Below are positions 2,818 through 26,377 of a stretch of 35,199 nucleotides of DNA, in pieces. Each line of letters begins with the position of its first letter. The first letter of the stretch is position 1. The stretch is taken from the NCBI GenBank assembly GCA_021205225.1, contig JAJPXX010000025.1:1-35199 (forward strand), written 5' to 3'. The stretch comes from Lachnospiraceae bacterium (lineage in GTDB: Bacteria > Bacillota > Clostridia > Lachnospirales > Lachnospiraceae). The notes beneath the pieces were generated by a model. That model was not told the DNA's origin. It saw only the letters and a list, made by a program, of their open reading frames with translations, and ran no database searches. A program made the translations under genes and the position numbers.

Positions 2818-2986
2818 TCGGACGGCTGGATTTCAAGTTACTATTCACAACTGCGCCGTGAATGTAACGATTTCCATTCATTTTAAGAAAAAAAGCCATT
2901 ATTGATATGGTGAAACAATAACAGCCTGAAAATATCTGTTGTGCGCTGGCATAATTGCAGCACGAAATATAGTGAGGATAATCGGC

Positions 2987-3547
2987 ATGAAAAGAAAAGA
3001 ATTAATCGAAACGATTCTTCTGAATCATCCCATCTGTGAATATTACTTTGGGACAAAAGAGGAGATGATATTTTCAGATAAGGCCTGGGCGATCTGTGCG
3101 CGGGACTGTGCGCGTTATGGCCATTGCTGGACCTGCCCGCCCTACTGCGGGACGATTGAAGAAAAAATCGCCAAATGCCGGCAATATGATTCTTTTTGCC
3201 TTTACTCGACCGTCACAGAGACTCCGAATGCCTGGGAAAAGGCAACGAATCTGCGGGTGAAGCGCCAGCATGATGACCTGACTTTGACGATCCGGGATGA
3301 GTTAGTAAAAGAGTTTCAGGACTTCTATATCCTTTCGACCGGCTGTACCGAATGCCAGGTCTGTACCTGTCCGGACGCACCCTGCCGTTTCCCGGAGAAG
3401 CGATTCTTTTCCATGGAAAGCCACGGCGTTATCGTCATGGAAATGCTGGATAAAATTGGAATGTGTTCCAATTACGGCCAGGATACCGTTGTCTATTTCA
3501 CCATGATTTTATTTAATGAGGTTCAAGATGGCAGTCAGAATCAATGA
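2987..3547 (+). CDS. DUF2284 cysteine-rich putative metal-binding protein
   Basis: CWTCPPYCG and GCTECQVCTCPDAPCRFPEKRFFSMESHG motifs; ATG 2987 preceded by gtgagg. Confidence 0.85.
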   Translation: MKRKELIETILLNHPICEYYFGTKEEMIFSDKAWAICARDCARYGHCWTCPPYCGTIEEKIAKCRQYDSFCLYSTVTETPNAWEKATNLRVKRQHDDLTLTIRDELVKEFQDFYILSTGCTECQVCTCPDAPCRFPEKRFFSMESHGVIVMEMLDKIGMCSNYGQDTVVYFTMILFNEVQDGSQNQ

Positions 3548-8367: not shown

Positions 8368-10521
8368 TTACAGGTTACCAAGATACTCGCCCAGGCAGTA
8401 TCCGTGCGTCACAGCGGATCCAACCGAGTTTCCTGCCATCAGGGTGTGGTACTGAATCGCGTAGCGCCCGCCGCAGTCATTTCCGACCGCATACAGGCCG
8501 TTGATAATGGTATCGTCCGAACGGAGCACTTCGTTGTTGTCGGTGGTGAGTACGCCGGACATCTGCACCATGCCGGAGGATACACGTCCCTTGCTGGTCA
8601 CGGTGCTTACGCCGAAGAACGGACCGTCCTGAATCGGAAGCATCAGGGAAGCGTCGCGGCCGAAATCAGTATCCGCGCCTGCCTCGCACATTTCATTGTA
8701 ATGCGCGATCTCATCCAGAAGTCCCTGTTTCGCGTCGCCTTCGTAGCCCAGGTAATCTGCCAGCTCATCCAGCGTATCCGCTACATAGAGGTGAGAGCCT
8801 TTCTCCAGGCCGTATCCGGTAAAGCAGTAGGTGTCAAAGCCTTCCGGTCCTGCGGTTTCCGGATCGGCGTGATAAGCTTCTACGCCTTCTTCCATACTCT
8901 GTACGACAAGATCCCACTCACGCTCACAGGTGCAGGAAGAAACATTATGCTCATAACCCATGTAAGCCATATTTTCATTCCAATTGGAATCCATGATGGT
9001 GCAGAGACGTTCCCCTGCCGGACGGCGTGCGAAGAAGCCCTGGCCGCCGAACTGGAGCATTGCGTCATTGTAGAAACGCTTTCCGTCGCTGCCAAATACC
9101 GGGTAGTTGCCAAAGGCCGCAAGGCTCGGAGAACCAGCGCCATTGCCAAAATTCATCGCAGCGCGCGGACCTGGCTCCATGACAGCGCCAGCCCAGAGCA
9201 TCAGCTTGTGTCCCATACCATTCTGGCCCATGCCGCGGAAGTTATCCGGATTCAGCTCTACGCCGCAGGCCTCAGCCAGCTCACGCACCTCATCCATCAG
9301 ACCAAGCACCATTTCGCCGTTGCCGGAGAAATCACCTGCCGAGCAGACGGTCGCTGTCGCGTTTACTTTGATATAATTGCCGTCCGCATCCTTTCCGATT
9401 GCGCCGGTCACATCTCCTGCTTCGTTCTGGCAGAGCACCACCGCACTGGTTCCCCACAGCCACTCGGCGCCATTGTTCTGCGCATCCTCAATGCTGTACT
9501 GCATGATAGCTTTCCATGCCGGCTGGTTCTCGCCGCCGCCAAGCGTATTGTAGAAATCACGATAGGAGATCGTACCTGGGAAGGAAGTATATCCAGAGTG
9601 GTTTACCTGATAATGGTTTTCTCCGTCATAGTAACGACCGTTCGGGAAATTGTAATAAACACTGAATTCTTCCAGTTCTTCTTCCGGCGCTACCTCGCGC
9701 ATATAATCCTGCGCTTCTCCGCTCCGGGTAGCGTACAGGTACGCAAAATGCTGATTGGAACGGTCATAGGTACGGCGCATCCACTCATTATAAACCGCGA
9801 TTTCATCTACGGTATCGCCGTCACACAGATCCTGGAAAGCCTGGCTGTTGACGGTTCCGACGTCACATCCAAGCGGAGCCCACGCATCCTCACTTAGCAT
9901 TTCCATGACAATAACCTTTTTCCCAAGCTCCGCAGCCTTACGGGCGCAGGGAACACCGGAGTTTCCTCCGCCAATGACCAGGATGTCACAGTCATAGGTT
10001 TCAGCGATTTCACTGTCGTCAATCACAGGCGCCTCGCCAAGCCAGTTGTAATTAGAGCCATAAAGCGCCGCGTAATCAACAACCGCTTCCTCTACCGTTG
10101 TCCCGCTGGCCTGTGCAATACAGTTATCCAGGCAGGTCTTTACCGCATCGGAGGTCAGCGTAGCGCCGGAAACTCCGTCAATGTCACTGCTCTGTGCTTC
10201 CAGACACTGGCTGATCAGCTCGTCCGCCGCCGCCTGGCCAATGCTGTCCGTTTCCTGAGAAACATCCAGCTGGATATCAATGATGCTGGTCTCATCGAAC
10301 GTTGCTGTCATCGTCACTGTTCCCATTCCGGTCGCGGAAGCCGTGTAGGTACCCGGTGTATAGATCGCTGCACCAGAAGCCGCTTCTGTGACTGCTTCTG
10401 TTACCGCTTCCTCCGCGCCGACTACTTTGGTTCCAATCCCGGAAAGTGCGACTGCCGCCGCCGCGGCACTGACTGCGCTGCCTTTCAGAAATTCTCTTCT
10501 GGAAATTCCGCTTTTACTCAT
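8368..10521 (-). CDS. Tat-exported flavoprotein reductase: FMN_bind domain + FAD_binding_2 (fumarate/urocanate reductase-like)
   Basis: ATG at 10521 with RBS GAAAGGAG; Tat signal SGISRREFLKGSAVSAAAAAVALSG; FMN_bind SGATLTS motif; ILVIGGGNSGVPCARKAAELGKKVIVME; C-terminal GLYAVGNDCGGRYAIQYHTLMAGNSVGSAVTHG. Confidence 0.9.
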   Translation of the reverse strand: MSKSGISRREFLKGSAVSAAAAAVALSGIGTKVVGAEEAVTEAVTEAASGAAIYTPGTYTASATGMGTVTMTATFDETSIIDIQLDVSQETDSIGQAAADELISQCLEAQSSDIDGVSGATLTSDAVKTCLDNCIAQASGTTVEEAVVDYAALYGSNYNWLGEAPVIDDSEIAETYDCDILVIGGGNSGVPCARKAAELGKKVIVMEMLSEDAWAPLGCDVGTVNSQAFQDLCDGDTVDEIAVYNEWMRRTYDRSNQHFAYLYATRSGEAQDYMREVAPEEELEEFSVYYNFPNGRYYDGENHYQVNHSGYTSFPGTISYRDFYNTLGGGENQPAWKAIMQYSIEDAQNNGAEWLWGTSAVVLCQNEAGDVTGAIGKDADGNYIKVNATATVCSAGDFSGNGEMVLGLMDEVRELAEACGVELNPDNFRGMGQNGMGHKLMLWAGAVMEPGPRAAMNFGNGAGSPSLAAFGNYPVFGSDGKRFYNDAMLQFGGQGFFARRPAGERLCTIMDSNWNENMAYMGYEHNVSSCTCEREWDLVVQSMEEGVEAYHADPETAGPEGFDTYCFTGYGLEKGSHLYVADTLDELADYLGYEGDAKQGLLDEIAHYNEMCEAGADTDFGRDASLMLPIQDGPFFGVSTVTSKGRVSSGMVQMSGVLTTDNNEVLRSDDTIINGLYAVGNDCGGRYAIQYHTLMAGNSVGSAVTHGYCLGEYLGNL

Positions 10522-10540
10522 AGTATAAACTCCTTTCTGT

Positions 10541-10576
10541 CGGGAATACGTCAGCTTTCGCAAGTGACGCATCCCG
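10541..10576 (-). promoter_or_regulatory. 5'-UTR hairpin with GNRA-type tetraloop upstream of the reductase
   Basis: Minus strand CGGGATGCGTCA-CTT-GCGA-AAG-C-TGACGTATTCCCG, followed after 6 nt by the Shine-Dalgarno region. Confidence 0.6.
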
Positions 10577-10859
10577 TATCCTTTACTCTCATCAGGCGAT
10601 TTGTGTGACATACAGCAAACGCCTGATTCATCTTTATTATCTTAACAGATTCGGGGAAATTTTGCTTCTTGGCTTCTTACCGAATGAGGAGCTGAAATGT
10701 CACCTTTTTTCATGAGCCTTGTCAAAAAAACGCCAAAAAGTCAAATAATGAGAACGATCTTTGACCTTTATGGGGGAAAGGTCTGGAGAAAGGAGTGTTT
10801 TTTGTATTCCGTATTATGGTGGTCAAATCTGAGATAGTATGGTATGATAAGAAGTACGA

Positions 10860-12869
10860 ATGAAAAGAAAAGGAAGAAGACCCGTGGAAAACAGTGAAAA
10901 GGCTCTGAAAAACCGCATATTTCAGAAAGAAAACCGGAAAATTCCAGAAGCAGGAAAGAATGTTCAGATTGAGGAACGTCTGCGTCAGATTGACCATTAT
11001 ATCAGCGCCGGCTATACACAGCCGATCCGGCTGGAGGATCTCGCAGATAGACTTTACCTGTCTCCAGGGTATCTGGCTCGATTTTTTAAGAAATATTATG
11101 GGAAAAATTTTTCAGAATACCTGACCGAGGTGCGGCTGGAGCATGCAATCGGCGATCTGGCTGATACCGATAAATCGGTGATTCGGATTGCCTGTGACAA
11201 TGGTTTTACCAGCCTGGCTGCTTTTAACAGGGCGATGAAAGCTGTTTATGGGGAAACCCCAACCGTTTTCCGAAAAAAGAAAGAAGCGGAGAGAAAAAGT
11301 AAGATCACCGAAAAAGCAGGATTGCCTGAACGGGAGAGTCTGGATGTTTCGGAAAAAAGCAGGGTAAGCTGCGCTGCCACAGAAGCGAAAAAGCTTCAGA
11401 AATGCTGGCAGGATACGATCAACATTGGTTCGGCGGCGGATTTTCTTCATTCGGAAATACGGGACCATCTGCTGGAGCTTTCCGCTATGCTTGGCTTTCG
11501 CTACGTTCGCTTTCGTGATATTTTTTCGGAAGAACTGCTGGTTGATACGACAGAAGCTGCCGGAGTAATCAATTTTTCCAGGATAGATATGATATTTGAT
11601 TTTCTGCTGGAAAATCATCTGAAGCCGCATATTGAGCTTGGCAGAAAGCCGCGGCGTTTGTTCCGGACGGTTGGGAATTCTCTTCTGCAGGAAAAAGCAG
11701 CTCCTTCCGAATTTGAAAAAGAAGTGTATGAAAAGCTTTTACATACACTGATGCAGCATCTTTTGCGGCGATATCGGAAAAGAGAACTGAACACCTGGCG
11801 AATGGAGCTTTGGATGGATGATTCCACCTGGAAGCAGCCGGGAAGCTGGGAACAGTATTTTGAACAGTTTGAGCTTACTGCAGGCATTATAAAGCAATAT
11901 GCGGAAGGGATCGCCTTTGGAGGCTGCTGTCTGCGAAACGACTTTATGATTCAGGAAGACCCGCAGGAAGAATACTCCTGTATGCGATTCCTGCAAAAAT
12001 GGGCGTTAAGAAGCCGTCGGCCGGATTTTCTTTCCATGACTTTTTTCGGGTACGAGCGTGACCAGACGCAGAAAGACGGATTTTCCAGGCGAACAGAGGA
12101 CTCCTCTGCAATGCTGCACAATCTTCAGCGAATGAAAGAGCTTGTTCGAATGGCAGGTATGGATCCCGTGCCGATTTATGTGACAGAGTGGAACCTGACC
12201 GTCTCTGACCGGAATTACATGAACGACAGCTGTTTTAAGGGGGCATATATTGTAAAAAATCTGCTGGAGGTTTGCGGAGAATCGGAATGCCTGGCCTATT
12301 ATCCGGGCAGCGACCGTCTGTCTGAATACTATGACTCCGAAGGACCTTTTTACGGGGGCAGCGGTTTGATTTCAAAAGACAGTGTTGTGAAGCCTGCCGG
12401 TTATGCGTTTCTGTTTCTAAACCAGATGTACGAATGGTGCCTGGAGAAAGGGGAACATTTTCTGGTTTCGACCGACCGCATGGATTCCTACAGCGTCATT
12501 TGCCACAACCAGCAAAATCTGGGCGCAGCCTATTATCAGACGAAGGAAAATGAAATAGACCGAGACAGCATGGAGCATTACTTTGAAGACGTCAGGATGC
12601 TGCGGCTTTCGCTTGAACTGATCGATATGAAGAATGGCTGGTATCAGATAAAAACCTGGAGGCTGAACAGGCAATATGGCGATCCGCTGCAGAACTGGAA
12701 ACAGCTGGGATATGAGAATGAGCTGACACAAAGGGATTTTCAATATCTGCGGCACATCTGCGAGCCGAAGCTGACAATCGAAAAGCGGGAGATTCACGGG
12801 AATTTACTGACTGTGGAGCTTTGCCTGGAGCCGAACGAAATCTCTTTTATTCAGATTCTGAAATGTTAA
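10860..12869 (+). CDS. AraC-family regulator fused to GH39-like domain
   Basis: N-terminal AraC HTH (IRLEDLADRLYLSPGYLARFFKKYYGKNFSEYLTEVRLEHA...SVIRIACDNGFTSLAAFNRAMKAVYGETPTVFRK); C-terminal GH39-like region with YVTEWNLTVS and RYVRFRDIFS. Confidence 0.82.
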   Translation: MKRKGRRPVENSEKALKNRIFQKENRKIPEAGKNVQIEERLRQIDHYISAGYTQPIRLEDLADRLYLSPGYLARFFKKYYGKNFSEYLTEVRLEHAIGDLADTDKSVIRIACDNGFTSLAAFNRAMKAVYGETPTVFRKKKEAERKSKITEKAGLPERESLDVSEKSRVSCAATEAKKLQKCWQDTINIGSAADFLHSEIRDHLLELSAMLGFRYVRFRDIFSEELLVDTTEAAGVINFSRIDMIFDFLLENHLKPHIELGRKPRRLFRTVGNSLLQEKAAPSEFEKEVYEKLLHTLMQHLLRRYRKRELNTWRMELWMDDSTWKQPGSWEQYFEQFELTAGIIKQYAEGIAFGGCCLRNDFMIQEDPQEEYSCMRFLQKWALRSRRPDFLSMTFFGYERDQTQKDGFSRRTEDSSAMLHNLQRMKELVRMAGMDPVPIYVTEWNLTVSDRNYMNDSCFKGAYIVKNLLEVCGESECLAYYPGSDRLSEYYDSEGPFYGGSGLISKDSVVKPAGYAFLFLNQMYEWCLEKGEHFLVSTDRMDSYSVICHNQQNLGAAYYQTKENEIDRDSMEHYFEDVRMLRLSLELIDMKNGWYQIKTWRLNRQYGDPLQNWKQLGYENELTQRDFQYLRHICEPKLTIEKREIHGNLLTVELCLEPNEISFIQILKC

Positions 12870-12967
12870 AGACAGGCACAGATTTATCTGTAGAAGACTG
12901 TCCTGAATGATTACAAAAAATATAGTAAACGACGTAAGTCGTTTTACGAGATAAGAAAGGAAAAACA

Positions 12968-13822
12968 ATGGAACAGTTAGAATTGAAAATATCGTTTCCC
13001 TTTCGGCTGGATGGGAAACGCGAACAATGGCCGGAATGTATTTTTCACTATACCAGCCAGATGAAAGCACTTTACACGGAAGCGTTAAAGAAGGAACTGG
13101 CTGCTGCCTCTGCGGATGCGGAGGATGCGTGTGTTTGTGCGGTGACACTGGAGGGCTGTTTTTTCCTGATGGAATATGAGCAGCTCATGGATGTGGCACA
13201 AACAGTTCGGAAATATTTTACATTGGCAGAGGATGTCTTCTGGAGCGCGCACTGCGAGCCGGGACGGTTAAGCACCGGTATCCTGAATTTCTGTAAAAAT
13301 GTAAAAATGAAGGAGCTTTGCCTGGATTACCGAACCAGTTCCGTAGAAGAGGCAAAAAAACTGGGATATCCCCCTGCACACACAGAGATGCAGCACACAA
13401 AGCAGGTACTGGAGCATTCCGTATTTACGGATTTTACGATTGCTATCGGCGGTGCAGGATGCAATCAGACAGAGGAAATCTGGAGCGAGACACTCCGGGA
13501 CGTGGGAGGTTTTGCTCCAATGGCGATCCGTCTGGCAGCTGACACATCGGAACAAAATATAGAAATCGCGGCGAAAAAACTGGTCGGATTTGGGTATGAG
13601 CCCTATATTCCTGAAACAGATTCTTCTGAAAATGCACAGAATCCCTCAAAGGTATTTATACGCCAGGGAAGAACGCTTCTTGCACCGCTTCCGGATGGGA
13701 CGATTGGCTGCGGACTGGGGGCAATTACCCGCCTGGAGGGAATGGCCTGCCAGAATACCTTGGATTTTCCGCTTTATCTGGAAGCGTCTGATCAGATTGC
13801 GCGGATTGCGCATGCCATCTGA
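12968..13822 (+). CDS. HemW/HemN-like (coproporphyrinogen oxidase-like) protein lacking radical-SAM cysteines
   Basis: Co-linear with HemW: EYEQLMDVAQTVRKYFTLAEDVFWSAHCEPG, KKLGYPPAHTEMQHTKQVLE, GAGCNQTEEIWSETLRDV, GLGAITRLEGMACQNTLDFPLYLEA; no CxxxCxxC in the SFPFRLDGKREQWPECIFHY region; RBS aagaaagg. Confidence 0.7.
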   Translation: MEQLELKISFPFRLDGKREQWPECIFHYTSQMKALYTEALKKELAAASADAEDACVCAVTLEGCFFLMEYEQLMDVAQTVRKYFTLAEDVFWSAHCEPGRLSTGILNFCKNVKMKELCLDYRTSSVEEAKKLGYPPAHTEMQHTKQVLEHSVFTDFTIAIGGAGCNQTEEIWSETLRDVGGFAPMAIRLAADTSEQNIEIAAKKLVGFGYEPYIPETDSSENAQNPSKVFIRQGRTLLAPLPDGTIGCGLGAITRLEGMACQNTLDFPLYLEASDQIARIAHAI

Positions 13823-14029: not shown

Positions 14030-14556
14030 TTATCCCAGAATCACGACATTCCAGGACAGCGGCGGAAGCTCTACGCATTTTTCGCCAGATACTTTCACTT
14101 CCTTCATCGTTACATTATCCGGCTCTTCGACCGTATTTCTGATCTCATAATCTTCCCCGCAAAGAGTCAGATGCTTCTTTACTTTGAGATCGCCATAACC
14201 GGAAAGCTCTATATTCAGCTCTACCGTTTCCTTTTCCTCACAGTTCAGGACAAAGAGATGTACTTCGTTGCTCTCTTCCTGATAAACCACTGCGGGCTCT
14301 ACAATCTTCAGATCGCCATATACGCTGGAATAAACCGGAGCATCCACGACAGCCTTCATAGCCGTGCCGCGGCCATATTTGCTCAGCATATGGAAGGGAT
14401 GGTAAATAGCCTGTCTGAAAAGTCCCCCGTTCCGCACCGTTGTAATCGGAGCGATGACATTAATCAGCTGTGCGAGGCAGGCAATCTCTACCGTGTCCGC
14501 ATTATTCAAAAGGGTGATGAGAAGCAGAAGGCGCCCTGACAGATTTCTGCATTGCT
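14030..14556 (-). pseudogene. C-terminal fragment of GH51 alpha-L-arabinofuranosidase
   Basis: Minus-strand frame LLNNADTVEIACLAQLINVIAPITTVRNGGLFRQAIYHPFHMLSKYGRG...LPPLSWNVVIL matches the GH51 C-terminal domain; frame closes (TGA) just upstream and no catalytic domain is present in the window. Confidence 0.8.
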
Positions 14557-14846
14557 TTCAGCTGGTATCATTTTTAGAATACGCACAAAAACAGGGCAAA
14601 CAAAATTAAAAAAGGCTGCAGCGGCATCAGACACAATCATACTACAATTTGTAGGAAAAGAACACGGATTTTCCTCAGAATTAACACTGTTGAAAGAACT
14701 GTGCAAATGGTACAATAGACTTATCAAATTCGACTGTGCGGACGTCGTTTTGACTATAGCAAATCGAGAGCCGGCCTTTTTAATGAGAGCAAATGTACTA
14801 TACTTTCAAAAAGTGCTGGTTGTGCGAAAAAAGGAGGTATACGAAT

Positions 14847-15881
14847 ATGTTGACACCAAAACAAAATATGCTCGAGGTAATTCGCGGAGGAAATCCGGAT
14901 CGCATTGTAAACCAGTATGAAGCAGTCCAGCTTCTGATGCATCCGTTTATGTTTTCCAGTCCACTGCTCCAGCCCGGACAGGAAAATGTTGTGAATGCCT
15001 GGGGCGTCACAAATACGTTCCCGGAGGGCGTACCGGGCGCGTTTCCGGTACATACGCCGGATAAAATCGTGGTAAAGGACATCGAGGACTGGAAAGAGTA
15101 CGTCCATGCGCCGTCACTGAAATTTACACAGGATCAGTGGGATATGGTGAAAGCGACCTATGACGCAGTGGATGGCGAGCAGTCCTTTAAGGCTGCGTTT
15201 GTTGCACCGGGACTTTTTGAGCAGACGCATCATCTCTGCGAGATTTCAAATGCGCTGATGTATTATATTACGAATGAAGACGAGATGCATGACCTGATCA
15301 AGTATCTGACCGAATGGGAGCTGGAGCTGGCGGAAGGCATCTGCTCGAACCTGCATCCGGATGCGCTTTTCCATCACGACGACTGGGGCGGCCTGGACAG
15401 CACCTTTATGAGTCCTGCCATGTTTGAAGACTTCTTTGTAGAGCCATACAAACAGATTTATGGATATTACCACAGCCATGGGGTAGAGCTGGTGATTCAT
15501 CACTCCGATTCTTATGCGGCGACGCTGGTTCCGGATATGATCGAGATGGGAATCGATGTGTGGCAGGGCTGCATGGAGACGAATAACATCCCAGAGCTGA
15601 TTAAAAAGTACGGCGGAAAGATCAGCTTTATGGGCGGCATCGAGAACCGTGCGGTAGATTATGAAGGCTGGACGGATGAAAACTGTGAAGCAGTCGTTCG
15701 CCGTGTCTGCGAGGAGTGCGGCAACAAATACTTTATTCCGTGTATCGCACAGGGCGGCCCTGGATCGGTATATCCGGGCGTGTATATGTCTCTTTGCAAC
15801 GCGATCGATAAGCTGAATGCGGAAAAATATGGCATCGACGCGGCGCAATCCACCAGACTTCCATGGCAGATCATGTTTTAA
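14847..15881 (+). CDS. Uroporphyrinogen decarboxylase-family methyltransferase (candidate methyltransferase I of a corrinoid demethylase system)
   Basis: MLTPKQNMLEVIRGGNPDRI, HHDDWGGLDSTFMSPAMFEDFFVEPYKQIYGYYHSHGVELVIHHSD, CIAQGGPGSVYPGVY; RBS aaggagg before ATG 14847. Confidence 0.87.
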   Translation: MLTPKQNMLEVIRGGNPDRIVNQYEAVQLLMHPFMFSSPLLQPGQENVVNAWGVTNTFPEGVPGAFPVHTPDKIVVKDIEDWKEYVHAPSLKFTQDQWDMVKATYDAVDGEQSFKAAFVAPGLFEQTHHLCEISNALMYYITNEDEMHDLIKYLTEWELELAEGICSNLHPDALFHHDDWGGLDSTFMSPAMFEDFFVEPYKQIYGYYHSHGVELVIHHSDSYAATLVPDMIEMGIDVWQGCMETNNIPELIKKYGGKISFMGGIENRAVDYEGWTDENCEAVVRRVCEECGNKYFIPCIAQGGPGSVYPGVYMSLCNAIDKLNAEKYGIDAAQSTRLPWQIMF

Positions 15882-15896
15882 GGAGGAACAGGAAAA

Positions 15897-16712
15897 GTGA
15901 TTATTATTGGCGAAAAGATAAATGGCTCGATTCCTTCTGTTGCTGAGGCGATTGCGAAGCGTGACGCAGAGTTTATCAAAGCGCGGGCTATCGCACAGAC
16001 GGAAGCAGGCGCGACCTATATTGACTGCTGTGCGTCGGTTCCGGAGGCGCAGGAGGTTGAAACACTGCACTGGATGATCGACTGCATTCAGGAAGTGACC
16101 GATCTTCCGATTTCAGTGGACAGTCCGAGTCCGGCAGTACTGGCGGAAGCCTACAAGTTCTGCAAATGTCCCGGTATTTTTAACTCCGTATCCGGTGAGG
16201 GCAGTAAGATTGATACGATTTTCCCGATCATGGCGCAGCCGGAGAACAAAGGCTGGGAAGTGATTGCGCTGCTCAGTGATGATACCGGCATTCCGAAAAA
16301 TGCGGCGGATCGTCTGAAGGTTTTTGATAAGATTATGGCGAAGGCAAAGGAATATGGAATTTCTCCGAGCCGTCTTCATATTGATCCGCTCGTAGAGATG
16401 CTTTGCACCTCTGAGAACGGAATTGAAACCAATACCGAGGTCATCCGTTCGGTGAGAGAGCAGTACCCTTCCATACATATTACGGCAGCCATCAGCAACA
16501 TTTCCTTTAACCTTCCGGTGCGAAAGCTGATCAATTACGGATTCCTGGTGCTGGCAATGAATGCGGGACTTGACAGCGCGATCATGGATCCGACCAACCG
16601 GGATATGCTGGGACTGGTGTACTCGACCGAGGCGCTTCTCGGCCTGGACGATTACTGTATGGAATACATCGGAGCTTACCGGGAAGGGCTGATCGGACCG
16701 GTAAAAAAATAA
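15897..16712 (+). CDS. Methyltetrahydrofolate:corrinoid methyltransferase (pterin-binding / DHPS-like fold)
   Basis: IIIGEKINGSIPSVAEAI, AGATYIDCCAS, LPISVDSPSP, NSVSGEGSK, LGLDDYCMEYIGAYR; GTG start with RBS aaggagg. Confidence 0.9.
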   Translation: MIIIGEKINGSIPSVAEAIAKRDAEFIKARAIAQTEAGATYIDCCASVPEAQEVETLHWMIDCIQEVTDLPISVDSPSPAVLAEAYKFCKCPGIFNSVSGEGSKIDTIFPIMAQPENKGWEVIALLSDDTGIPKNAADRLKVFDKIMAKAKEYGISPSRLHIDPLVEMLCTSENGIETNTEVIRSVREQYPSIHITAAISNISFNLPVRKLINYGFLVLAMNAGLDSAIMDPTNRDMLGLVYSTEALLGLDDYCMEYIGAYREGLIGPVKK

Positions 16713-16891
16713 ACCGGCGTATGTGAAAAAAATTTTAAAGCAATGACAGATGATGTCCGAACAGTCAGACATCTGTGCAGGTAATAAGGAGGACGTTCAT
16801 TGATGGATTCCTTATGACTCTGGCCATTTGGCTCGTTGCTTCACGAAAAAAAGAAATAGAAAAGTCATATCAGGCAAGGAGGTATTTTATT

Positions 16892-17530
16892 ATGTCAAAG
16901 ATTACAGAAGTTGCGGAATTGGTAGAAAAAGGTAAGGCGAAGCTGGTAGGTCCGGCAGTCCAGGCGGCTCTTGACGAGGGCTGTGATCCGATGGATATCC
17001 TGAACCATGGAATGATCGACACCATGACCATCGTCGGTGAAAAATTTAAGAATGGCGAGATTTTCGTTCCGGAGATGCTTGTGGCGGCGCGCGCGATGAA
17101 AAAAGGTGTAGAGGTGCTCAAACCGCATCTCGCAAGCGGTTCCACCGGTGCGAACGGAAAAGTAATTATCGCTACGGTTTCTGGGGACTTACATGACATC
17201 GGCAAGAACCTGGTAGCCATGATGATTGAGAGCGCGGGCTTTGAAGTGGTTGACCTTGGCGTAGATGTTTCGACCGATAAGGTAATCGAAGCTTACAAAG
17301 AAAACCCCGATACAAAAATCATCTGCCTGTCCGCTCTTTTGACAACAACAATGCCGGCAATGAAAGCCACGGTGACAGCGCTCAATGAGTCTGACTTCCG
17401 AAGCAATATTAAGGTGATGGTAGGCGGCGCGCCGATCACGCAGGAATTTGCGGACGAAATTGGTGCGGACGGCTACTCAGAAGATGCGGCAAGCGCGGCG
17501 TCCCTTGCGAAGAGACTGGCAGCGGCATGA
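16892..17530 (+). CDS. Corrinoid (B12-binding) methyl-carrier protein
   Basis: B12 motif GDLHDIGKNLVAMMIESAGFEVVDLGVDVS, MVGGAPITQEFADEIGADGYSEDA; RBS caaggaggt, ATG 16892. Confidence 0.95.
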   Translation: MSKITEVAELVEKGKAKLVGPAVQAALDEGCDPMDILNHGMIDTMTIVGEKFKNGEIFVPEMLVAARAMKKGVEVLKPHLASGSTGANGKVIIATVSGDLHDIGKNLVAMMIESAGFEVVDLGVDVSTDKVIEAYKENPDTKIICLSALLTTTMPAMKATVTALNESDFRSNIKVMVGGAPITQEFADEIGADGYSEDAASAASLAKRLAAA

Positions 17531-17666
17531 TTTATTGTTGACCACATTTACAAAGACAGAAATAAAATGGCTTGAAGCGTAGCATGTAAACGATTCGGGG
17601 ATATGATATTTCTGTCATAATGTTGCTTATATGGTTGGTATGTTACCGGTAGTTTAAAGAATTGGA

Positions 17667-17715
17667 GAGCACCGTCCTGCTTTGTAAAAAGTGTATTGTA
17701 GGGCGGCGCTTTTTG
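17667..17715 (+). terminator. Probable intrinsic terminator between corrinoid protein gene and activase gene
   Basis: agcaccgtcct ... agggcggcgcttttt imperfect stem followed by T5. Confidence 0.5.
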
Positions 17716-17750
17716 TGTTACACTAAAATAGTAAAGAATTCGTGCAGTGA

Positions 17751-17789
17751 TTATAGAAAACGATGAATGATTCTTGTCGTTTTCTGTAA
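17751..17789 (+). promoter_or_regulatory. Inverted repeat upstream of activase gene
   Basis: TTATAGAAAACGA N13 TCGTTTTCTGTAA; 12/13 arm complementarity. Confidence 0.45.
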
Positions 17790-17830
17790 AATTCATGGCA
17801 ATTAAAGTTTCGTGAAAGAAGAGGGCTTCG

Positions 17831-19681
17831 ATGTGTAAGGTTGCTTTTATCAGGGAGGGAACGATTGTCAGCGTTCCGGAGGGCATGACAGTGCTGGAGG
17901 CGGAGATCCGGGCGGGATTGAAGCCGGACGCGCCCTGCGGGGGAACAGGAAAGTGTGGGAAATGTCTGGTGCGGATCGCGGATATGGTGTCTCACGGCGA
18001 TACAACTTTACCATGTGAGGATATTGATACAACAAAATCTGCTCACAAAAACAAAGTATTGCCGTATGAAATTCGTGATTCGGAAAAGACAATCGCAGCC
18101 GAAGCTTATGGCAATTCAGTGCGTGCCTGCCAGACCAAAGTGACGGCGGATATCTATGTAGACACACTCTCTTCGCTGACGAAAGAGTATGCAATACTGA
18201 CGGAAGGTTATCTGCGCCCGGTGACGTATCATCCGGGACTTTCGGTACATAAAATACAGCTTGAAAAGCCAGAGACCGGAGATAAACGCTCGGATTGGTA
18301 TCGAATGACAGAACAGCTTACACAGGATGAACCGTTCGAACAGATATACCCTGATCCCGCGTTGGCTTCTTCCCTGTATGACAGGCGCGCGGAATCCGCA
18401 GAATGGTATGCCATTCATACGGATGGAAGAGTTCTGGATCTGCGCCGTGAGCCGGGCCGGATTTGTTTCGCGGCCTTTGATATCGGGACAACCACAGTAG
18501 CGGGGTATCTTCTGGACGCGAAGGACGGCCGTACCCTGGCAGTCGAAAGCCGCCTGAATCCGCAGGTACAGTATGGAGCGGACGTGATCATGCGTGCAAA
18601 TTACGCATTGGAACATGGAACAGAGATTTTAAGCATGTGCATTCGTGAAGCAGTAAACGAGATGCTTCAGATCCTTGCGAAAAAAGCATCTGTATGTACA
18701 GAAGATATTTTTCAGGTAAGTGTTGTAGGGAATACCTGTATGCATCACCTGTTTCTCGGCATCTCACCGGCAAGTCTGGTTCACGCGCCATACACGCCCG
18801 CGATCAACGCGCGCCTGACGCTGTGTGCCGCTGATTACGGACTGTGCGTTCACTCAAACGCACAGCTTCTGATGCTGCCGGTGATTGCGGGGTATGTGGG
18901 AGCGGATACCTGTGCCTGCCTGATGGCGACACGCCCTGATCAGGAGGATAACATTACGCTCTTGCTGGACATTGGCACGAATGGCGAAATGGTGCTTGGA
19001 AACCGTAAAAGGCTAGTTGCCTGTTCGACGGCTGCGGGTCCCGCATTTGAGGGAGCGAAAATCACCTGCGGAATGCGCGGGGTAGCGGGAGCAGTGGATC
19101 ATGTCTTTTATGAGAAAGGAAACTGGAGATACACAACGATCGGTGATGAACCAGCCGTGGGGCTGTGCGGCTCCGGCCTGATTGACCTTGTCGCCTGCCT
19201 GCTTCGTGCGGGGCTGATCGATGAGAACGGCAGACTGGAAAGCGGACAGGCGGATTCCCATACGTTTGTGCTTGTCCCTCCGGAAGACTCCGGAAATGGA
19301 CAGGGGGTCTATCTGACTCGGAAGGATGTAGGAGAGGTACAGCTTGCGAAGGCCGCGATTGCAGCCGGAATCCAGCTTCTGATGGAAGAGCTTCAGATAA
19401 CAGAGGACGATATCACAGAAGTGCGCGTTGCCGGTGCGTTTGGCAATTATATGAATCCGGCAAGTGTCGGTGAGATTGGGATGTTTCCACATTCTCTGGC
19501 GGGTCGGGTACGGTCGATTGGGAATGCGGCTGGAGAAGGAGCAAAGCTGGCGCTTCTTAGCCTGGAGGAACTGAAAATGTCTGAGACACTTGCGCGCAGT
19601 ACAGATTTTATTGAATTGGCGGCGCTTCCAGAATTTCAGGATTGTTTTGTGGAGCAGCTGGGATTTGAAGAAGCGTTATGA
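17831..19681 (+). CDS. RACE-type reductive activator of corrinoid proteins (2Fe-2S ferredoxin domain + ASKHA ATPase, DUF4445)
   Basis: 2Fe-2S PCGGTGKCGKCLVRI...VRACQTKV; ASKHA motifs AFDIGTTTVAGYLLD, LLLDIGTNGEMVLG, CGSGLIDLVACLL. Confidence 0.93.
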   Translation: MCKVAFIREGTIVSVPEGMTVLEAEIRAGLKPDAPCGGTGKCGKCLVRIADMVSHGDTTLPCEDIDTTKSAHKNKVLPYEIRDSEKTIAAEAYGNSVRACQTKVTADIYVDTLSSLTKEYAILTEGYLRPVTYHPGLSVHKIQLEKPETGDKRSDWYRMTEQLTQDEPFEQIYPDPALASSLYDRRAESAEWYAIHTDGRVLDLRREPGRICFAAFDIGTTTVAGYLLDAKDGRTLAVESRLNPQVQYGADVIMRANYALEHGTEILSMCIREAVNEMLQILAKKASVCTEDIFQVSVVGNTCMHHLFLGISPASLVHAPYTPAINARLTLCAADYGLCVHSNAQLLMLPVIAGYVGADTCACLMATRPDQEDNITLLLDIGTNGEMVLGNRKRLVACSTAAGPAFEGAKITCGMRGVAGAVDHVFYEKGNWRYTTIGDEPAVGLCGSGLIDLVACLLRAGLIDENGRLESGQADSHTFVLVPPEDSGNGQGVYLTRKDVGEVQLAKAAIAAGIQLLMEELQITEDDITEVRVAGAFGNYMNPASVGEIGMFPHSLAGRVRSIGNAAGEGAKLALLSLEELKMSETLARSTDFIELAALPEFQDCFVEQLGFEEAL

Positions 19682-19729
19682 CTTAAGAGTTACAAGACTG
19701 AAAAATCAAATAAGCAGGAGTGATTTGAA

Positions 19730-20269
19730 TTGATTGATATAGATAAGCTAAAGAGACAGGGGAAAGCCCAGGGCTTTACCCACGTTGCGTTTCTGGACTG
19801 CGGCACATTAGAGCTGCGCGAGGAAGTACGCCAGATGTGTGAGGCGAATACCTGTCATATGTACGGAAAATGCTGGAGCTGCCCGCCTGGATGCGGATCC
19901 CTGGAACAGTGCCGTGAAAAGATCGGACGGTACCATGAGGGAATCATCGTACAGACTGTCGGAGAGCTGGAGGACGAGCTAGACGGGGAAGCTATGATGG
20001 AAACAGAGCAGCGTCACAAGGAGACCTTTTACGCTTTTGAGAAAACGCTGCGGGAACAGTATCCGGGAATGCTTGCGATTGGTGCGGGCTGCTGCACGAA
20101 GTGCAAAACATGCACCTACCCGGATCAGCCCTGCCGTTTTCCAAATGAAGCCTTCTCTTCGATGGAAGCGTATGGTATGCTGGTCACACAGGTCTGTCAG
20201 GCCAATCATCTGGACTATTATTACGGTTCCTGTACGATTGCCTACACAAGCTGTTATTTATTAACATAA
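19730..20269 (+). CDS. DUF2284 cysteine-rich putative metal-binding protein (second copy type)
   Basis: CWSCPPGCGSLEQC, GAGCCTKCKTCTYPDQPCRFPNEAFSSMEAYGMLV; TTG start with RBS aggag. Confidence 0.85.
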   Translation: MIDIDKLKRQGKAQGFTHVAFLDCGTLELREEVRQMCEANTCHMYGKCWSCPPGCGSLEQCREKIGRYHEGIIVQTVGELEDELDGEAMMETEQRHKETFYAFEKTLREQYPGMLAIGAGCCTKCKTCTYPDQPCRFPNEAFSSMEAYGMLVTQVCQANHLDYYYGSCTIAYTSCYLLT

Positions 20270-20284
20270 GAATATTATGTTAAT
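20260..20284. promoter_or_regulatory. AT-rich palindrome overlapping end of the DUF2284 gene
   Basis: ATTAACATAA gaata TTATGTTAAT: perfect 10-nt arms. Confidence 0.5.
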
Positions 20285-20358
20285 CTGAGAAATGGTGAAG
20301 ACGGAACAATCAGAAGCGAAAGATTCTGTTGCTGACATATTGGTATTGGGGGATATTT

Positions 20359-20994
20359 ATGACAGTATTAGAAGAATTGCGGCAATCCATAGAAGCCGGA
20401 CATCCAAAAGAGACGGAAAAGCTGGTATCGGTAGCCCTGGAACAGCAGGTTGACTCCATGCGTATTGTGGAGGAAGCCATGATGTCGGCGATGCGCACGA
20501 TGGGAGAGCGCTATAAGGAGCAGGAGGCAGATATTCCCTCCATTCTCGCGGCAGCCCGCTGCGTCCGTTCCGGTTTCACGCTGATTGAAAAAAATGACGC
20601 TTCATTTGAGGAGCAAAACATCGGCACCGTGATTGTTGGCACCGTCGAAGGCGACCTCCATGACATCGGGAAAAACCTGGTTGCGCTGATGTTCCGCAGT
20701 GCGGGATTCAAAGTCATAGACCTTGGCGTGGATATCTCAGAAAAACAGTTCCTGAAAGCCGTCCGTGAAAATCCGGATGTGCAGATCGTGTGCATCTCTT
20801 CTCTGCTAAGCACTTCTTTGCCGGAAATGGAACAGGTGATAAAGGTGTTGCGGCGCAACGATCCGGAAAAAAAGTATAAGATCATGGTGGGCGGCGGCGC
20901 GGTGACAAAGCAGCTTGCCGAGGACATGGGTGCGGACGCGTACACGGAAAACTGTGTAGAGGCAGCGGAGGTCGCGAAGACATTTATTGTCTAA
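20359..20994 (+). CDS. Second corrinoid (B12-binding) methyl-carrier protein
   Basis: GDLHDIGKNLVALMFRSAGFKVIDLGVDIS, MVGGGAVTKQLAEDMGADAYTENC; ATG 20359. Confidence 0.95.
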   Translation: MTVLEELRQSIEAGHPKETEKLVSVALEQQVDSMRIVEEAMMSAMRTMGERYKEQEADIPSILAAARCVRSGFTLIEKNDASFEEQNIGTVIVGTVEGDLHDIGKNLVALMFRSAGFKVIDLGVDISEKQFLKAVRENPDVQIVCISSLLSTSLPEMEQVIKVLRRNDPEKKYKIMVGGGAVTKQLAEDMGADAYTENCVEAAEVAKTFIV

Positions 20995-21042: not shown

Positions 21043-21148
21043 ATGGCAATGAATGATTTGACAGAGATTGGAGTTGCAAGGCTTCTGAATTTGATACGCG
21101 ATCAATGCGTACTGTTAGATGGCTGACAAACCATCAGGAGATGAGAAA

Positions 21149-22681
21149 ATGATTACAGGAATAATCAAAAATAAAATTGACAAAATATGGACAGACATTT
21201 GGGCGGGAGGGATTACGAATCCACTGACAGTGATTGAACAGCTGACATACCTGATGTTTATACGTTCTCTTGATGAAAAGGAACTGGAGACTGAGGAATT
21301 TGAGAATATGACCGGAGAAAAAATGGCTAAAATTTTCCCGCAGTCCGCGATTGGTCAATCCATGCGCTGGAGCAAATTCAAAAACAATGATCCGAGACAG
21401 ATTTACGATGTAATTTCACAGCGTGTATTTCCTGCAATCAAAAACCTGAAATATGGACGTCTGCCAGATTTTACCGAGCAGGGAGAGCTGATTGAAACTG
21501 AGGATGACCCGAACAGTACGAACAGCAATAATACGGCATTTGCGCGATACATGAGTGATGCTATGTTCCTGATTCCGACACCACAGATTTTGCAGAAGAT
21601 CATTACCGGACTGGATGACCTGTATGAACATGATATTGCAGATCTGGATATGCAGGGCGATTTATATGAATATATGCTGGGAAAACTGGCAACAGCCGGC
21701 CAGAACGGTCAGTTCCGGACTCCAAAGCATATTCGGGATATGATGGTAGAATTGATTCAGCCAACCCCTGATGATATTATTTGTGATCCGGCTTGCGGCA
21801 CCGCCGGGTTCCTCGTTTCTGCTGCGGAATATATACGAAAAAATTATGAGGATACCATGACTGCGGAACAGTGGGAACATTTTTCAGGAGAATTATTTAC
21901 TGGATATGATATAGATCGAACCATGCTCCGCATTTCGGCAATGAATTTGATGCTGCATTCCATCAGCAATCCGGATGTGGACTATAAAGACAGCGTATCA
22001 AAACAGAATCAGATTTCTGATAAGTTTACCGTTTGCCTTGCCAATCCTCCATTCAAAGGAACTATTGATGCCGAAAGCATTCATGACAATCTGAAAGCAG
22101 TCACAAATACAAAGAAAACGGAACTGCTGTTTCTGGCGCTGTTCCTCCGTATTATGAAGAAAGGCGGCCGCTGTGCCTGCATCGTTCCGGACGGCGTCCT
22201 GTTTGGATCATCAGCAGCGCATAAAGCGATCCGAAAAGAGCTGATTGAGAATCATCAGCTTCGTGCGGTAATTTCCATGCCATCCGGCGTTTTCAAACCC
22301 TATGCGGGTGTATCCACGGCAGTTCTTGTATTTACCAAAACTGGAGCAGGCGGAACGGATCAGATCTGGTTCTATGATATGAAAGCCGATGGATTCAGTC
22401 TGGATGATAAGCGTTCAGAGATTTCGGATAATGATATTCCAGACATCATTCAGCGGTTTCATAATCTGGAAACGGAAAAGAACAGAGAACGAACTGAACA
22501 AAGCTTCTTTGTACCGAAACAGGAGATTGTGGATAATGGATATGATCTGTCCATCAATAAGTATAAGAAGACAGAGTATGTACCGGTAGAATATCCGCCT
22601 ACCTCTGAAATTCTGGATAAGCTGGATGAATTGGAAAAAGAGATCACAAAAGGGCTTAATGAGTTAAGAGGGATGCTGTGA
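21149..22681 (+). CDS. hsdM: Type I restriction-modification methyltransferase subunit
   Basis: HsdM N-terminal domain; CDPACGTAGFLVSAAEYI; LANPPFKG; RBS caggag before ATG 21149. Confidence 0.95.
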   Translation: MITGIIKNKIDKIWTDIWAGGITNPLTVIEQLTYLMFIRSLDEKELETEEFENMTGEKMAKIFPQSAIGQSMRWSKFKNNDPRQIYDVISQRVFPAIKNLKYGRLPDFTEQGELIETEDDPNSTNSNNTAFARYMSDAMFLIPTPQILQKIITGLDDLYEHDIADLDMQGDLYEYMLGKLATAGQNGQFRTPKHIRDMMVELIQPTPDDIICDPACGTAGFLVSAAEYIRKNYEDTMTAEQWEHFSGELFTGYDIDRTMLRISAMNLMLHSISNPDVDYKDSVSKQNQISDKFTVCLANPPFKGTIDAESIHDNLKAVTNTKKTELLFLALFLRIMKKGGRCACIVPDGVLFGSSAAHKAIRKELIENHQLRAVISMPSGVFKPYAGVSTAVLVFTKTGAGGTDQIWFYDMKADGFSLDDKRSEISDNDIPDIIQRFHNLETEKNRERTEQSFFVPKQEIVDNGYDLSINKYKKTEYVPVEYPPTSEILDKLDELEKEITKGLNELRGML

Positions 22682-22771
22682 CTTAGAATCATTTGTATTT
22701 AAAACCGGGAAATTATGAGTTAGGTGAGTTATTGCAAACTGCTGATTCATAGACATTGAGGAGATAAAACA

Positions 22772-23098
22772 ATGGCACAGGATGGAATTACCAAACGAGA
22801 CTGGGCGCTTTTCAGAGAAAAAGTTCCAGAATGGCAGGAAGCCTACATGGAAAAGCTTGTAAAAGAATACGTGGAGATGCTATCAGGAGATGGAGCCGCA
22901 TCCGATAAATTCTGGGAACTGGATAAGCGGATCAAAGCGGACAAACGCCGCAAAAGTGTGGTTATGGAAATGTGCCGCTCTGAGATGCTTTACAATATTC
23001 TTGATCTGATGCGGGAAGGTACTATTACGGTGGATGATCTGGATGATTTCAGCGAACATCTGAGGGGGACGGTAAAGCTGCTGATGGAGGGATGGTGA
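22772..23098 (+). CDS. Small conserved protein within the type I RM operon
   Basis: 108-aa ORF between hsdM and hsdS; MAQDGITKRDWALFREKVPEWQEAYMEKLVKEYVEML. Confidence 0.7.
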   Translation: MAQDGITKRDWALFREKVPEWQEAYMEKLVKEYVEMLSGDGAASDKFWELDKRIKADKRRKSVVMEMCRSEMLYNILDLMREGTITVDDLDDFSEHLRGTVKLLMEGW

Positions 23099-23149
23099 TA
23101 TGGGGATCTGGTTATGTACTGATCAAGTATACTCCGAGGAGGTGGCAAC

Positions 23150-24262
23150 ATGATTAATACAGGGAAATTTGCCGAGTTTTATGTTGATGTCACAAAAGAA
23201 GGGACGAAAATACCGCAAGATCAGTATCTTGAAGAAGGAAAATATCCTGTTATTGATCAGGGAAGACAAAATATTGCCGGCAGATGGGATAACGATGAAG
23301 GACTGTTTACGAACGTTCCAGCGATAATCTTTGGAGATCACACTCGTGCGGTTAAATACATTACGGAACCATTTTTTATTGGAGCGGATGGAGTAAAAAT
23401 ACTACGTCCGGCAAAAGCAGAAGACAATCCAAAATATCTTTATTATGCGTTGCAGGCTGCAAGAATTCCAAATCTGGGGTATAGCAGGCATTTCAAAGTA
23501 GTAAAGGACTTAGAGATAAGAACATATTCGAGAGCAGTACAAGACAAAATAGTTGTGCTTTTAGAGAAAATCGACCTGTTAATTGAGCAATACAATACTG
23601 AAATGTCCTGGATAGATCAACTCGTCAGATCCCGGTTTATCGAGATGTTTGGAGATTCAGTAAATAATCCGTTAGGACTTCCTACTGTATTGCTTTCAGA
23701 TGTTTCAGATATTGTTTCCGGAATAACAAAGGGCAGGAAGACGAATGGTGCAGAGCTATTTGAGGTTCCCTATATGGCTGTTTCAAATGTGAAGGCAGGA
23801 TATATTGATTGGAGTACCGTTAAAACAATCAGAGCAACTAAGGATGAGATCGAACAGTATTGCTTGCAACCTTTGGATGTTCTTATGACAGAAGGTGGTG
23901 ATCCAGATAAGTTGGGACGGGGTGCAATTATAAGCGCACCACCAGAAAATTGTATTCATCAGAATCACATTTTTCGTGTTCGCGTGAATAGAAATCGTCT
24001 TCTTCCACAGTATTTGGAGGAATATTTACAACATCAAAAAGCGAAGCAGTATTTCCTTGGATGTGCGAAACAGACAACAGGCATAGCAAGCATTAACATG
24101 AAACAACTTCGCGTTATGCCAGTTCTACTGCCAGAAATAAAGTTGCAGAATCAGTTCGCCGCTTTCGTGCAGGCGACCGACAAATCGAAACTGGCAATAC
24201 AGAAAAGCCTTAATGAACTGGAAATTCTGAAAAAATCATTGATGCAACAATATTTTGGATGA
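23150..24262 (+). CDS. hsdS: Type I RM specificity subunit (copy 1, intact C-terminus)
   Basis: Two TRD-type halves, central VRSRFIEMFGD, conserved tail LNELEILKKSLMQQYFG; RBS gaggagg. Confidence 0.93.
   Translation: MINTGKFAEFYVDVTKEGTKIPQDQYLEEGKYPVIDQGRQNIAGRWDNDEGLFTNVPAIIFGDHTRAVKYITEPFFIGADGVKILRPAKAEDNPKYLYYALQAARIPNLGYSRHFKVVKDLEIRTYSRAVQDKIVVLLEKIDLLIEQYNTEMSWIDQLVRSRFIEMFGDSVNNPLGLPTVLLSDVSDIVSGITKGRKTNGAELFEVPYMAVSNVKAGYIDWSTVKTIRATKDEIEQYCLQPLDVLMTEGGDPDKLGRGAIISAPPENCIHQNHIFRVRVNRNRLLPQYLEEYLQHQKAKQYFLGCAKQTTGIASINMKQLRVMPVLLPEIKLQNQFAAFVQATDKSKLAIQKSLNELEILKKSLMQQYFG
23630..24190 (+). repeat. 561-bp direct repeat, copy A (TRD2 of hsdS 1)
   Basis: Read as identical to 26858-27418 (offset 3228) from tcccggtttatcgag to gacaaatcgaaa. 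Confidence 0.93.
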
Positions 24263-24269
24263 AAGGACA

Positions 24270-24731
24270 ATGAAACATATGAAATTATATCACGGAAGTC
24301 ATATGTGCGTAGAACGGCCGGAGATTTTAACGAATGGTCACTATAAAGATTTCGGCTATGGTTTTTACTGCACGAGTCTAGAGCGGCAGGCTCGCAGATG
24401 GGCTCTGGCCAAAAAGAAAAACCATGTAGTGAATATCTATGATTACACAGAAAATAACGATCTTGAGATAATACAATTTTCGGAAATGACGGAAAAATGG
24501 CTGGACTTCATTGTTGATTGCAGGCGTGGAATTGAGCATTCCTTTGATATTGTAGAAGGACCAATGGCTGATGATACGATCTGGGATTATATCGAAGATT
24601 TTATGAATGGGAATATCAGCAGAGAGGCTTTTTGGGTCCTGGTAAAATTCAAGTATCCCACTCATCAGATCGTTTTTTGTACAAAAAAAGCGTTGCAGAC
24701 TCTGACGTATGAAAGGAGTTATCTTCTATGA
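24270..24731 (+). CDS. DUF3990 protein (ADP-ribosyltransferase-like fold expected)
   Basis: MKLYHGSHMCVERPEIL...NGHYKDFGYGFYCTSLERQARRWA: typical DUF3990 N-terminal motif. Confidence 0.82.
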   Translation: MKHMKLYHGSHMCVERPEILTNGHYKDFGYGFYCTSLERQARRWALAKKKNHVVNIYDYTENNDLEIIQFSEMTEKWLDFIVDCRRGIEHSFDIVEGPMADDTIWDYIEDFMNGNISREAFWVLVKFKYPTHQIVFCTKKALQTLTYERSYLL

Positions 24732-25198
24732 CAAATATATATTTCGAAGATGAAGAGGTAACTGAGGACGACCTGTATTTTTTATGTTATATGATAGAAA
24801 GAGTTGCGCGCAGGCTTCATCAGAGGGATCGTTACGTTGTAAACGGGATTGACCGGTTGGAATGGATGCGGCTGATCAGTGTGGCGAATGTTCTGCATTG
24901 TGAGAATCCGCTGGAAATTGAAGATGAATGGATAGAGGAATATGAGTTACAATCTGGGAACTTTGATGCTCTTGACGTAGATGGAGAACTGGCTAAAATT
25001 ATCCCAACGCCCACACAAATGGGAAAGGTTTATCAGCGGCTGATCTTACAGACATTAGGGTCAGAAGAGAACTATGTGGATGGCCTCATTCGGGTGTATA
25101 ATGATGAATTATGTGAAACCCTGGATAACTATACATGCGGAGCATTCTATGAACCATCCTATTATATTACGAGAGCGTATTATAACGGTGGATTCTGA
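24728..25198 (+). CDS. Hypothetical partner of DUF3990 protein, N-terminus resembling DUF3791
   Basis: Overlaps the DUF3990 gene by 4 bp; LYFLCYMIERVARRLHQRDRYVVNGIDRLEWMRLISVANVLHCENP resembles the DUF3791 pattern. Confidence 0.6.
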   Translation: MTNIYFEDEEVTEDDLYFLCYMIERVARRLHQRDRYVVNGIDRLEWMRLISVANVLHCENPLEIEDEWIEEYELQSGNFDALDVDGELAKIIPTPTQMGKVYQRLILQTLGSEENYVDGLIRVYNDELCETLDNYTCGAFYEPSYYITRAYYNGGF

Positions 25199-25201
25199 AA
25201 A

Positions 25202-25305
25202 TTGAAGCAGATTGAGGTGTATATTCCTGATGATAAACGTTAAAACTGTTTCGTTGCTTTCGTGTATGCCATCGAAAAACGCTGATGCAGAAATATTTTG
25301 GATAA
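25202..25305 (+). pseudogene. Vestigial hsdS 3' end
   Basis: LKQIEVYIPDDKR*NCFVAFVYAIEK then, after a frame change, LMQKYFG*; parallels MKQLRVMPVLLPEIKLQNQFAAFVQATDK...LMQQYFG* of the intact HsdS. Confidence 0.75.
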
Positions 25306-25350
25306 TGAATGGGGCGCAGGATGATACGGTACAGAAAGGACTGTACTATC

Positions 25351-26343: not shown

Positions 26344-26347
26344 TAAT

Positions 26348-26370
26348 CCTCTCCCGGTTTCTAGGGGAGG
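26348..26370 (+). promoter_or_regulatory. Hairpin sequestering the Shine-Dalgarno of hsdS copy 2
   Basis: CCTCTCC cggtttcta GGGGAGG directly before tgatggtATG. Confidence 0.5.
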
Positions 26371-26377
26371 TGATGGT

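Follow-up and report, generated by a model that had tools for sequence, protein, structure and literature searches.

The window analysed here is a stretch of 35,199 nucleotides that corresponds to contig C16 of a Lachnospiraceae genome of 3.46 Mb, which is 98.6% complete. The gene P0001, located at positions 12968..13822 of the forward strand, was delineated from its open reading frame, its predicted fold and its dN/dS, and encodes a HemN/HemW-fold protein of 284 amino acids without the radical-SAM cluster. Its ATG start codon is preceded by the motif AAAGGA (12956..12961, forward strand), the likely ribosome-binding site as read from the sequence. Residue 1 of the protein already aligns with HemW, so that no part of the coding sequence has been left out upstream. 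The preceding gene (10860..12869, forward strand) encodes a regulator in which an AraC-type part is joined to a GH39 domain (Pfam HTH_18 and Glyco_hydro_39), and an orthologue occupies the same place in the genomes G019 and G009. It ends 98 nt upstream of P0001 and both genes possibly belong to one transcript. This fusion of an AraC-type DNA-binding domain with a GH39 glycosidase is an unusual regulator beside a reductase. On the other side of the regulator, a Tat-exported reductase (8368..10611, reverse strand) was identified by its Pfam domains FMN_bind and FAD_binding_2, by its twin-arginine sequence SRREFLKG and by its pairing with P0001; a heme-motif check revealed no CxxCH. The reductase diverges from the regulator, which is followed by P0001, and the distance from reductase to P0001 is therefore 2.36 kb, the longest reductase-partner distance encountered save that of its orthologue.

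Downstream of P0001, a corrinoid cluster on the forward strand (14793-20994) is composed of a UroD-like protein, a pterin-binding methyltransferase, two corrinoid proteins, a RACo-like activator and a DUF2284 protein. A second DUF2284 gene is present at 2939-3547, beside FAD proteins. The region 21119-29748 (forward strand) contains the type I restriction-modification genes HsdM, a two-part specificity region and HsdR. A phage-type integrase (25309-26343) is located amid these genes; such an arrangement could allow inversion or shuffling of the specificity gene.

The alignment of P0001 with its cluster-bearing homologues reveals that the sequence FPF-C-FKHCSYC is changed into FPF-R-LDGKREQW, P0001 having FPFRLDGKREQW where the homologues have FPFCxxxCxxC. 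The loop that replaces the CxxxCxxC motif (RLDGKREQWPECIFHY) is encoded by codons 13-28 (13004..13051, forward strand). Ten cysteines are present in the protein and none occupies a cluster position; the replaced loop has a single one, C24, which lies further on. The sequence EGGSP/GGGTP becomes EG-CFF and GLPGQT becomes GAGCNQT. The motif HNxxYW, which binds heme in HemW (PMC11834973), is absent. P0001 also lacks HemN_C and, internally, some 30 amino acids, both present in HemW. The first-pass annotation had described a cluster segment replaced by a sequence with one Cys, and a pseudo-radical-SAM protein; both descriptions agree with the loss of all three cluster cysteines and of the SAM-binding motifs from a retained fold. 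Its overlay on HemW almost from end to end holds for the fold and for the N-terminus, and fails at the missing HemN_C domain and internal stretch.

A model of P0001 obtained by AlphaFold2 with 26 homologues displayed a pLDDT of 89.7 and a pTM of 0.87. When compared with solved structures by Foldseek, HemN from Escherichia coli (1OLT) was the best match (E 5.9e-14, TM 0.76), nine orders of magnitude ahead of the next one in E-value. A control model, built from the four cluster-less orthologues only in order to exclude a fold imposed by the HemW sequences, was weaker (pLDDT 71) and again had 1OLT as top match (E 2.5e-9). Cys-bearing homologues were detected in the same genome with E-values of 4e-11 and 2e-8, and with the two models they show that the resemblance does not arise by chance. 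No Pfam family, PF04055 included, matched P0001, and all its NCBIfam matches were below threshold, which indicates that the protein is too diverged for the family models; the search of solved-structure sequences with P0001 or with the profile of its four orthologues retrieved nothing. That the protein has this fold and has lost the cluster is practically certain, and the HemN barrel of the predicted model places it by descent in the HemN/HemW superfamily. Assignment as a radical SAM superfamily enzyme was rejected, the three cluster Cys and a PF04055 match both being absent. These results caution against the names HemW, HemN and coproporphyrinogen oxidase in the annotation of P0001-type genes.

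Within the genus, the orthologue of G019 is open and shares 92% identity with P0001, the orthologue of G009 (91% identity) is interrupted by one TGA, and in G015 only the last 63 amino acids remain, the reductase and the AraC regulator being gone. At least two of the orthologue genomes are MAGs, so that the TGA of G009 may be an error. Open orthologues with 58-59% identity and the same cluster replacement were found in G416 and G446, which belong to a different genus within the family. The dN/dS of P0001, calculated from the three copies of full length, is 0.10-0.16, a value below that of the AraC gene (0.21), similar to that of RACo (0.14-0.18) and above those of the reductase (0.03) and UroD (0.01-0.03). 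Across the orthologues of both genera, 13 of the 16 residues of the replaced loop are invariant versus 130 of 268 elsewhere (p 0.01). The dN/dS, the conservation of the loop and the broken relatives together indicate that P0001 is kept under selection without its cluster and is dispensable in some strains. The stop codon of G009, the remnant of G015 and the lost catalytic motifs could suggest that P0001 is what remains of a HemN-like gene and now decays without a function, but the dN/dS, the open orthologues of the other genus and the loop more conserved than the remainder of the protein make this very improbable. A simple pseudogene is disfavoured by the dN/dS and the cross-genus orthologues, notwithstanding the two broken relatives, and we have little doubt that P0001 is a real, selected protein. 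Other genes of the locus decay too, as indicated by a remnant of 159 amino acids (14030-14509, reverse strand) of an alpha-L-arabinofuranosidase-like gene, whose counterpart at this position of G019 (L024:6303-7829) has 508 amino acids.

Relatives were searched with P0001 and derived profiles in 47 genomes of its own genus and in 7 genomes of the genus of G416. These searches returned ordinary HemW, HemZ and a set of non-canonical HemN-like relatives. Counting distinct proteins, a FAD_binding_2-type reductase is encoded within 2.4 kb of 26 of the 27 non-canonical genes versus none of the 81 HemW/HemZ genes, a count that, like its Fisher p-value, is inflated by close copies (at least eight distinct subtypes are represented) and that includes some HemW/HemZ loci of which no more than about 1.5 kb of flanking sequence was viewed in either direction. 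Circularity is avoided, because the relatives were found by similarity to P0001 and not by neighbourhood. The sole unpaired gene (L043:3896-4513, on contig C47 of the same genome) is an orphan copy of the L042-type partner that has its middle deleted, encodes 205 amino acids and has no adjacent reductase. The reductase and its partner are the only genes common to all 14 subtype loci examined; they are arranged in tandem with short gaps, overlapping or convergent, and many of the gaps are of 0-140 nt or negative. All the paired reductases with a complete N-terminus carry a twin-arginine signal, none contains CxxCH, and each has either the FMN_bind motif or a Cys after the signal. The design differs between the genera: FMN_bind is present in the genus of the window, whereas the reductases of the other genus (L056, L057, L093, L094, L151, L153, L159, L160) have no FMN_bind and display a Cys a short distance past the Tat signal (LGGC, LGAC), a trait of Tat lipoproteins, which they may be by this sequence feature. 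At L093:5492-10517 (G416), a cluster-bearing partner gene is flanked on either side by a different Tat reductase and may serve both. Most Tat reductases of the genome that contains the window are devoid of such a HemN-like partner. In the open-access literature searched, no paper on the HemN-like/reductase pairing was found, and the candidate papers on gut flavin biology did not mention HemN or radical SAM. From this pairing, P0001 is very probably a dedicated partner of the adjacent flavin reductase.

Phylogenetic trees showed that the reductase-linked proteins form one clade, separate from HemW, with supports of 100/98, also when the motif columns were removed; HemN, HutW and STM4012 proteins were left out of the tree, which bears on the exact parent family. 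The cluster-bearing siblings score best with the HutW, STM4012 or HemW models, always below the cut-off. The HemN_C domain is missing in several lines of the clade. The trees of the reductases and of their partners are correlated (Mantel p 0.0015, and 0.04 with one row per subclade) and agree in most subclades, the one mismatch being the L146 type, which groups differently. Three to four changes of cluster state were counted on the full trees and two after removal of the two longest rows, the pairing being retained. The AU test speaks only weakly against one single loss of the cluster (p 0.04, and 0.08 without the two longest rows), and for this reason we give a range: judging from these sequences, the clade probably underwent two to four losses of the radical-SAM cluster. 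Several losses are also favoured by the five quite different replacements observed (RLDGKREQW, SWYREEDRF, CLRTPAY, CIQPENF and a deletion). No column of the reductase alignment separates the reductases of cluster-bearing partners from those of cluster-less partners, and thus there is no sign of a modified residue vanishing with the cluster. A search of 397 genomes of the family detected members of the P0001 family in two genera only, and samples of the order (295) and of the class (338), partly redundant with the family set, gave no further members at E 1e-70, a cut-off that would miss diverged subtypes. The clade constitutes a natural series from a full cluster to one Cys and to none in a single genomic context, which makes the role of a radical-SAM fold after the loss of its chemistry testable.

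The first-pass annotation had taken the replaced cluster to suggest a protein that may bind heme, porphyrin or corrinoid without catalysis, and the position of P0001 to make a role in corrinoid handling plausible. Members of the HemN/HemW superfamily act on tetrapyrroles, and in the genus of the window the corrinoid methyltransferase cluster starts about 1 kb downstream of P0001. However, no corrinoid genes are found near the orthologues of the other genus or at any other locus of the family, where the consistent neighbour is the flavin reductase, to which the first-pass annotation had drawn no link. The cluster is intact in G015 beside the 63-aa remnant, and UroD relatives (E<=1e-100) are present in 20 of the 47 genomes of the genus versus four for P0001, one of them the remnant. 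The corrinoid association thus failed every test applied to it and was rejected. Heme or porphyrin binding is opposed by the motif HNxxYW, found in 0 of 21 reductase-linked members tested versus 12 of 13 ordinary HemW, and by the absence of CxxCH from the paired reductases. A carrier of heme, porphyrin or corrinoid is accordingly very improbable, the least credible of the readings considered, and P0001 probably assists the reductase as a dedicated helper and is not a protein of heme or vitamin B12.

Of the rivals, the strongest is a metal or redox site that was remodelled, in which dispersed cysteines near the mouth of the barrel (C24, C64, C96, C165, C248 and others) would replace CxxxCxxC and P0001 would act on the reductase or on its substrate as an enzyme or a cofactor donor. 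Eight of the ten cysteines are invariant in the four orthologues (58-92% identity), most of them where the relatives have no Cys, and several are placed at the end of a predicted strand or immediately behind it. Against such a site, this invariance rests on few sequences (n=4), and L057, another sibling without the cluster, contains a single Cys in its whole sequence, so that the cluster-less members do not generally share a cysteine site; we regard this rival as rather unlikely. A sensor of substrate or redox state, controlling the expression or activity of the reductase, for instance in concert with neighbouring regulators of the AraC, LysR or two-component type, would account for the recurrence of regulators (AraC in the window, LysR in 5 and a GHKL kinase with a LytTR regulator in 4 of the 14 subtype loci), but the types of regulators vary while the partner is constant, and P0001 has no DNA-binding domain. 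Such a sensor is less likely still.

The reading that we prefer, tentatively and at somewhat less than even probability, is that of a cytosolic accessory protein for the adjacent exported reductase alone: P0001 would be a chaperone of its maturation or export. A clade of the HemN/HemW superfamily would have become tied to Tat-exported FAD_binding_2 reductases, diversified with them and then discarded the [4Fe-4S]/SAM site in several branches. The partial TIM barrel of P0001 would bind the reductase precursor, by its signal peptide or an apo-domain, and retain it until FAD loading and folding of the reductase are complete, since the Tat system takes folded cargo; a role in FAD loading or in proofreading is conceivable. 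In the model, P0001 starts directly at the first barrel strand and has no signal sequence, and thus it should stay in the cytosol. A chaperone needs no radical chemistry, so the cluster could be lost, and we infer from the losses of the cluster and of HemN_C and from the absence of HNxxYW that a scaffold fits better than catalysis or heme transfer. The decay of P0001 in G015, where the reductase is gone, and the internal deletion of the orphan copy fit the partnership. Against this reading, an intact reductase stands beside a broken partner at two loci (G009 with its TGA, and G019:C73 with a split frame), so that the partner is non-essential there or the MAG sequences are wrong, and most Tat reductases of the genome do without such a partner. 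The existence of cluster-bearing siblings also points to a catalytic ancestor, and these siblings may still be catalytic; the predicted fold of P0001 is unlike that of TorD/DmsD. The wider proposal of a HemN-derived chaperone family for Tat flavin reductases, with two to four independent losses of the cluster and a new cysteine-lined site in the line of P0001, is speculative and on the whole unlikely. If true, a catalytic barrel would have become a protein-folding or cofactor-loading device. The genome encodes 12 FAD_binding_2 proteins, most with twin-arginine signals, and a conserved private partner offers a handle on the maturation and the substrates of such proteins.

Among the known systems, P0001 shares with the radical-SAM heme chaperone HemW the barrel fold, the order of the segments and the superfamily. 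It was rejected as a HemW, since it lacks CxxxCxxC, GGGTP, HNxxYW and HemN_C and has no match with TIGR00539 at E<=10, a model for which the cut-off is 205 and the score of ordinary HemW from the genus 293 bits. The coproporphyrinogen III dehydrogenase HemN (1OLT, TIGR00538) is the closest solved structure; unlike HemN, P0001 has no cluster, and it scores 11 bits for a cut-off of 325. The radical-SAM models ChuW/HutW and STM4012 are the best-scoring for several reductase-linked siblings, with at most 146 bits for cut-offs of 380-400, and P0001 obtains 13.9 bits or nothing. PsgB (TIGR04419), a HemN-related non-iron pseudo-SAM protein judged by its family name, is likewise cluster-less and a precedent for this kind of protein. 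P0001 was rejected as a PsgB, being unmatched at E<=10, and the linked siblings score 18-40 bits for a cut-off of 300; nothing on the biology of PsgB was found in the open-access literature searched. The paired reductases share FAD_binding_2, and in the genus of the window FMN_bind, with the flavocytochrome c, urocanate-type and vinyl phenol reductases, but they have no CxxCH and their best subfamily model, VprA, gives 92 of the 600 bits needed. The sequence NRLGGNA of flavocytochrome c3 aligns with YHTLMAGN of the partner reductase, so that the substrate is probably different.

Tat maturation proteins are described in PMC3316669 and PMC8428690 as binding one specific precursor, and such maturation chaperones are the well-known precedent (PMC3316669, PMC8428690, PMC6708511) for a cytosolic protein encoded tightly with a Tat-exported cofactor enzyme. 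The fold of these redox-enzyme maturation proteins (TorD, DmsD, NapD) is unrelated to that of P0001, and no TorD/DmsD or NapD fold appears among the structural matches listed for it (HemN and other barrels). Their classic clients carry complex cofactors such as molybdopterin, whereas the reductase of P0001 would carry FAD/FMN. Like them, P0001 is presumed to be cytosolic and its gene is tied to one Tat-exported redox enzyme.
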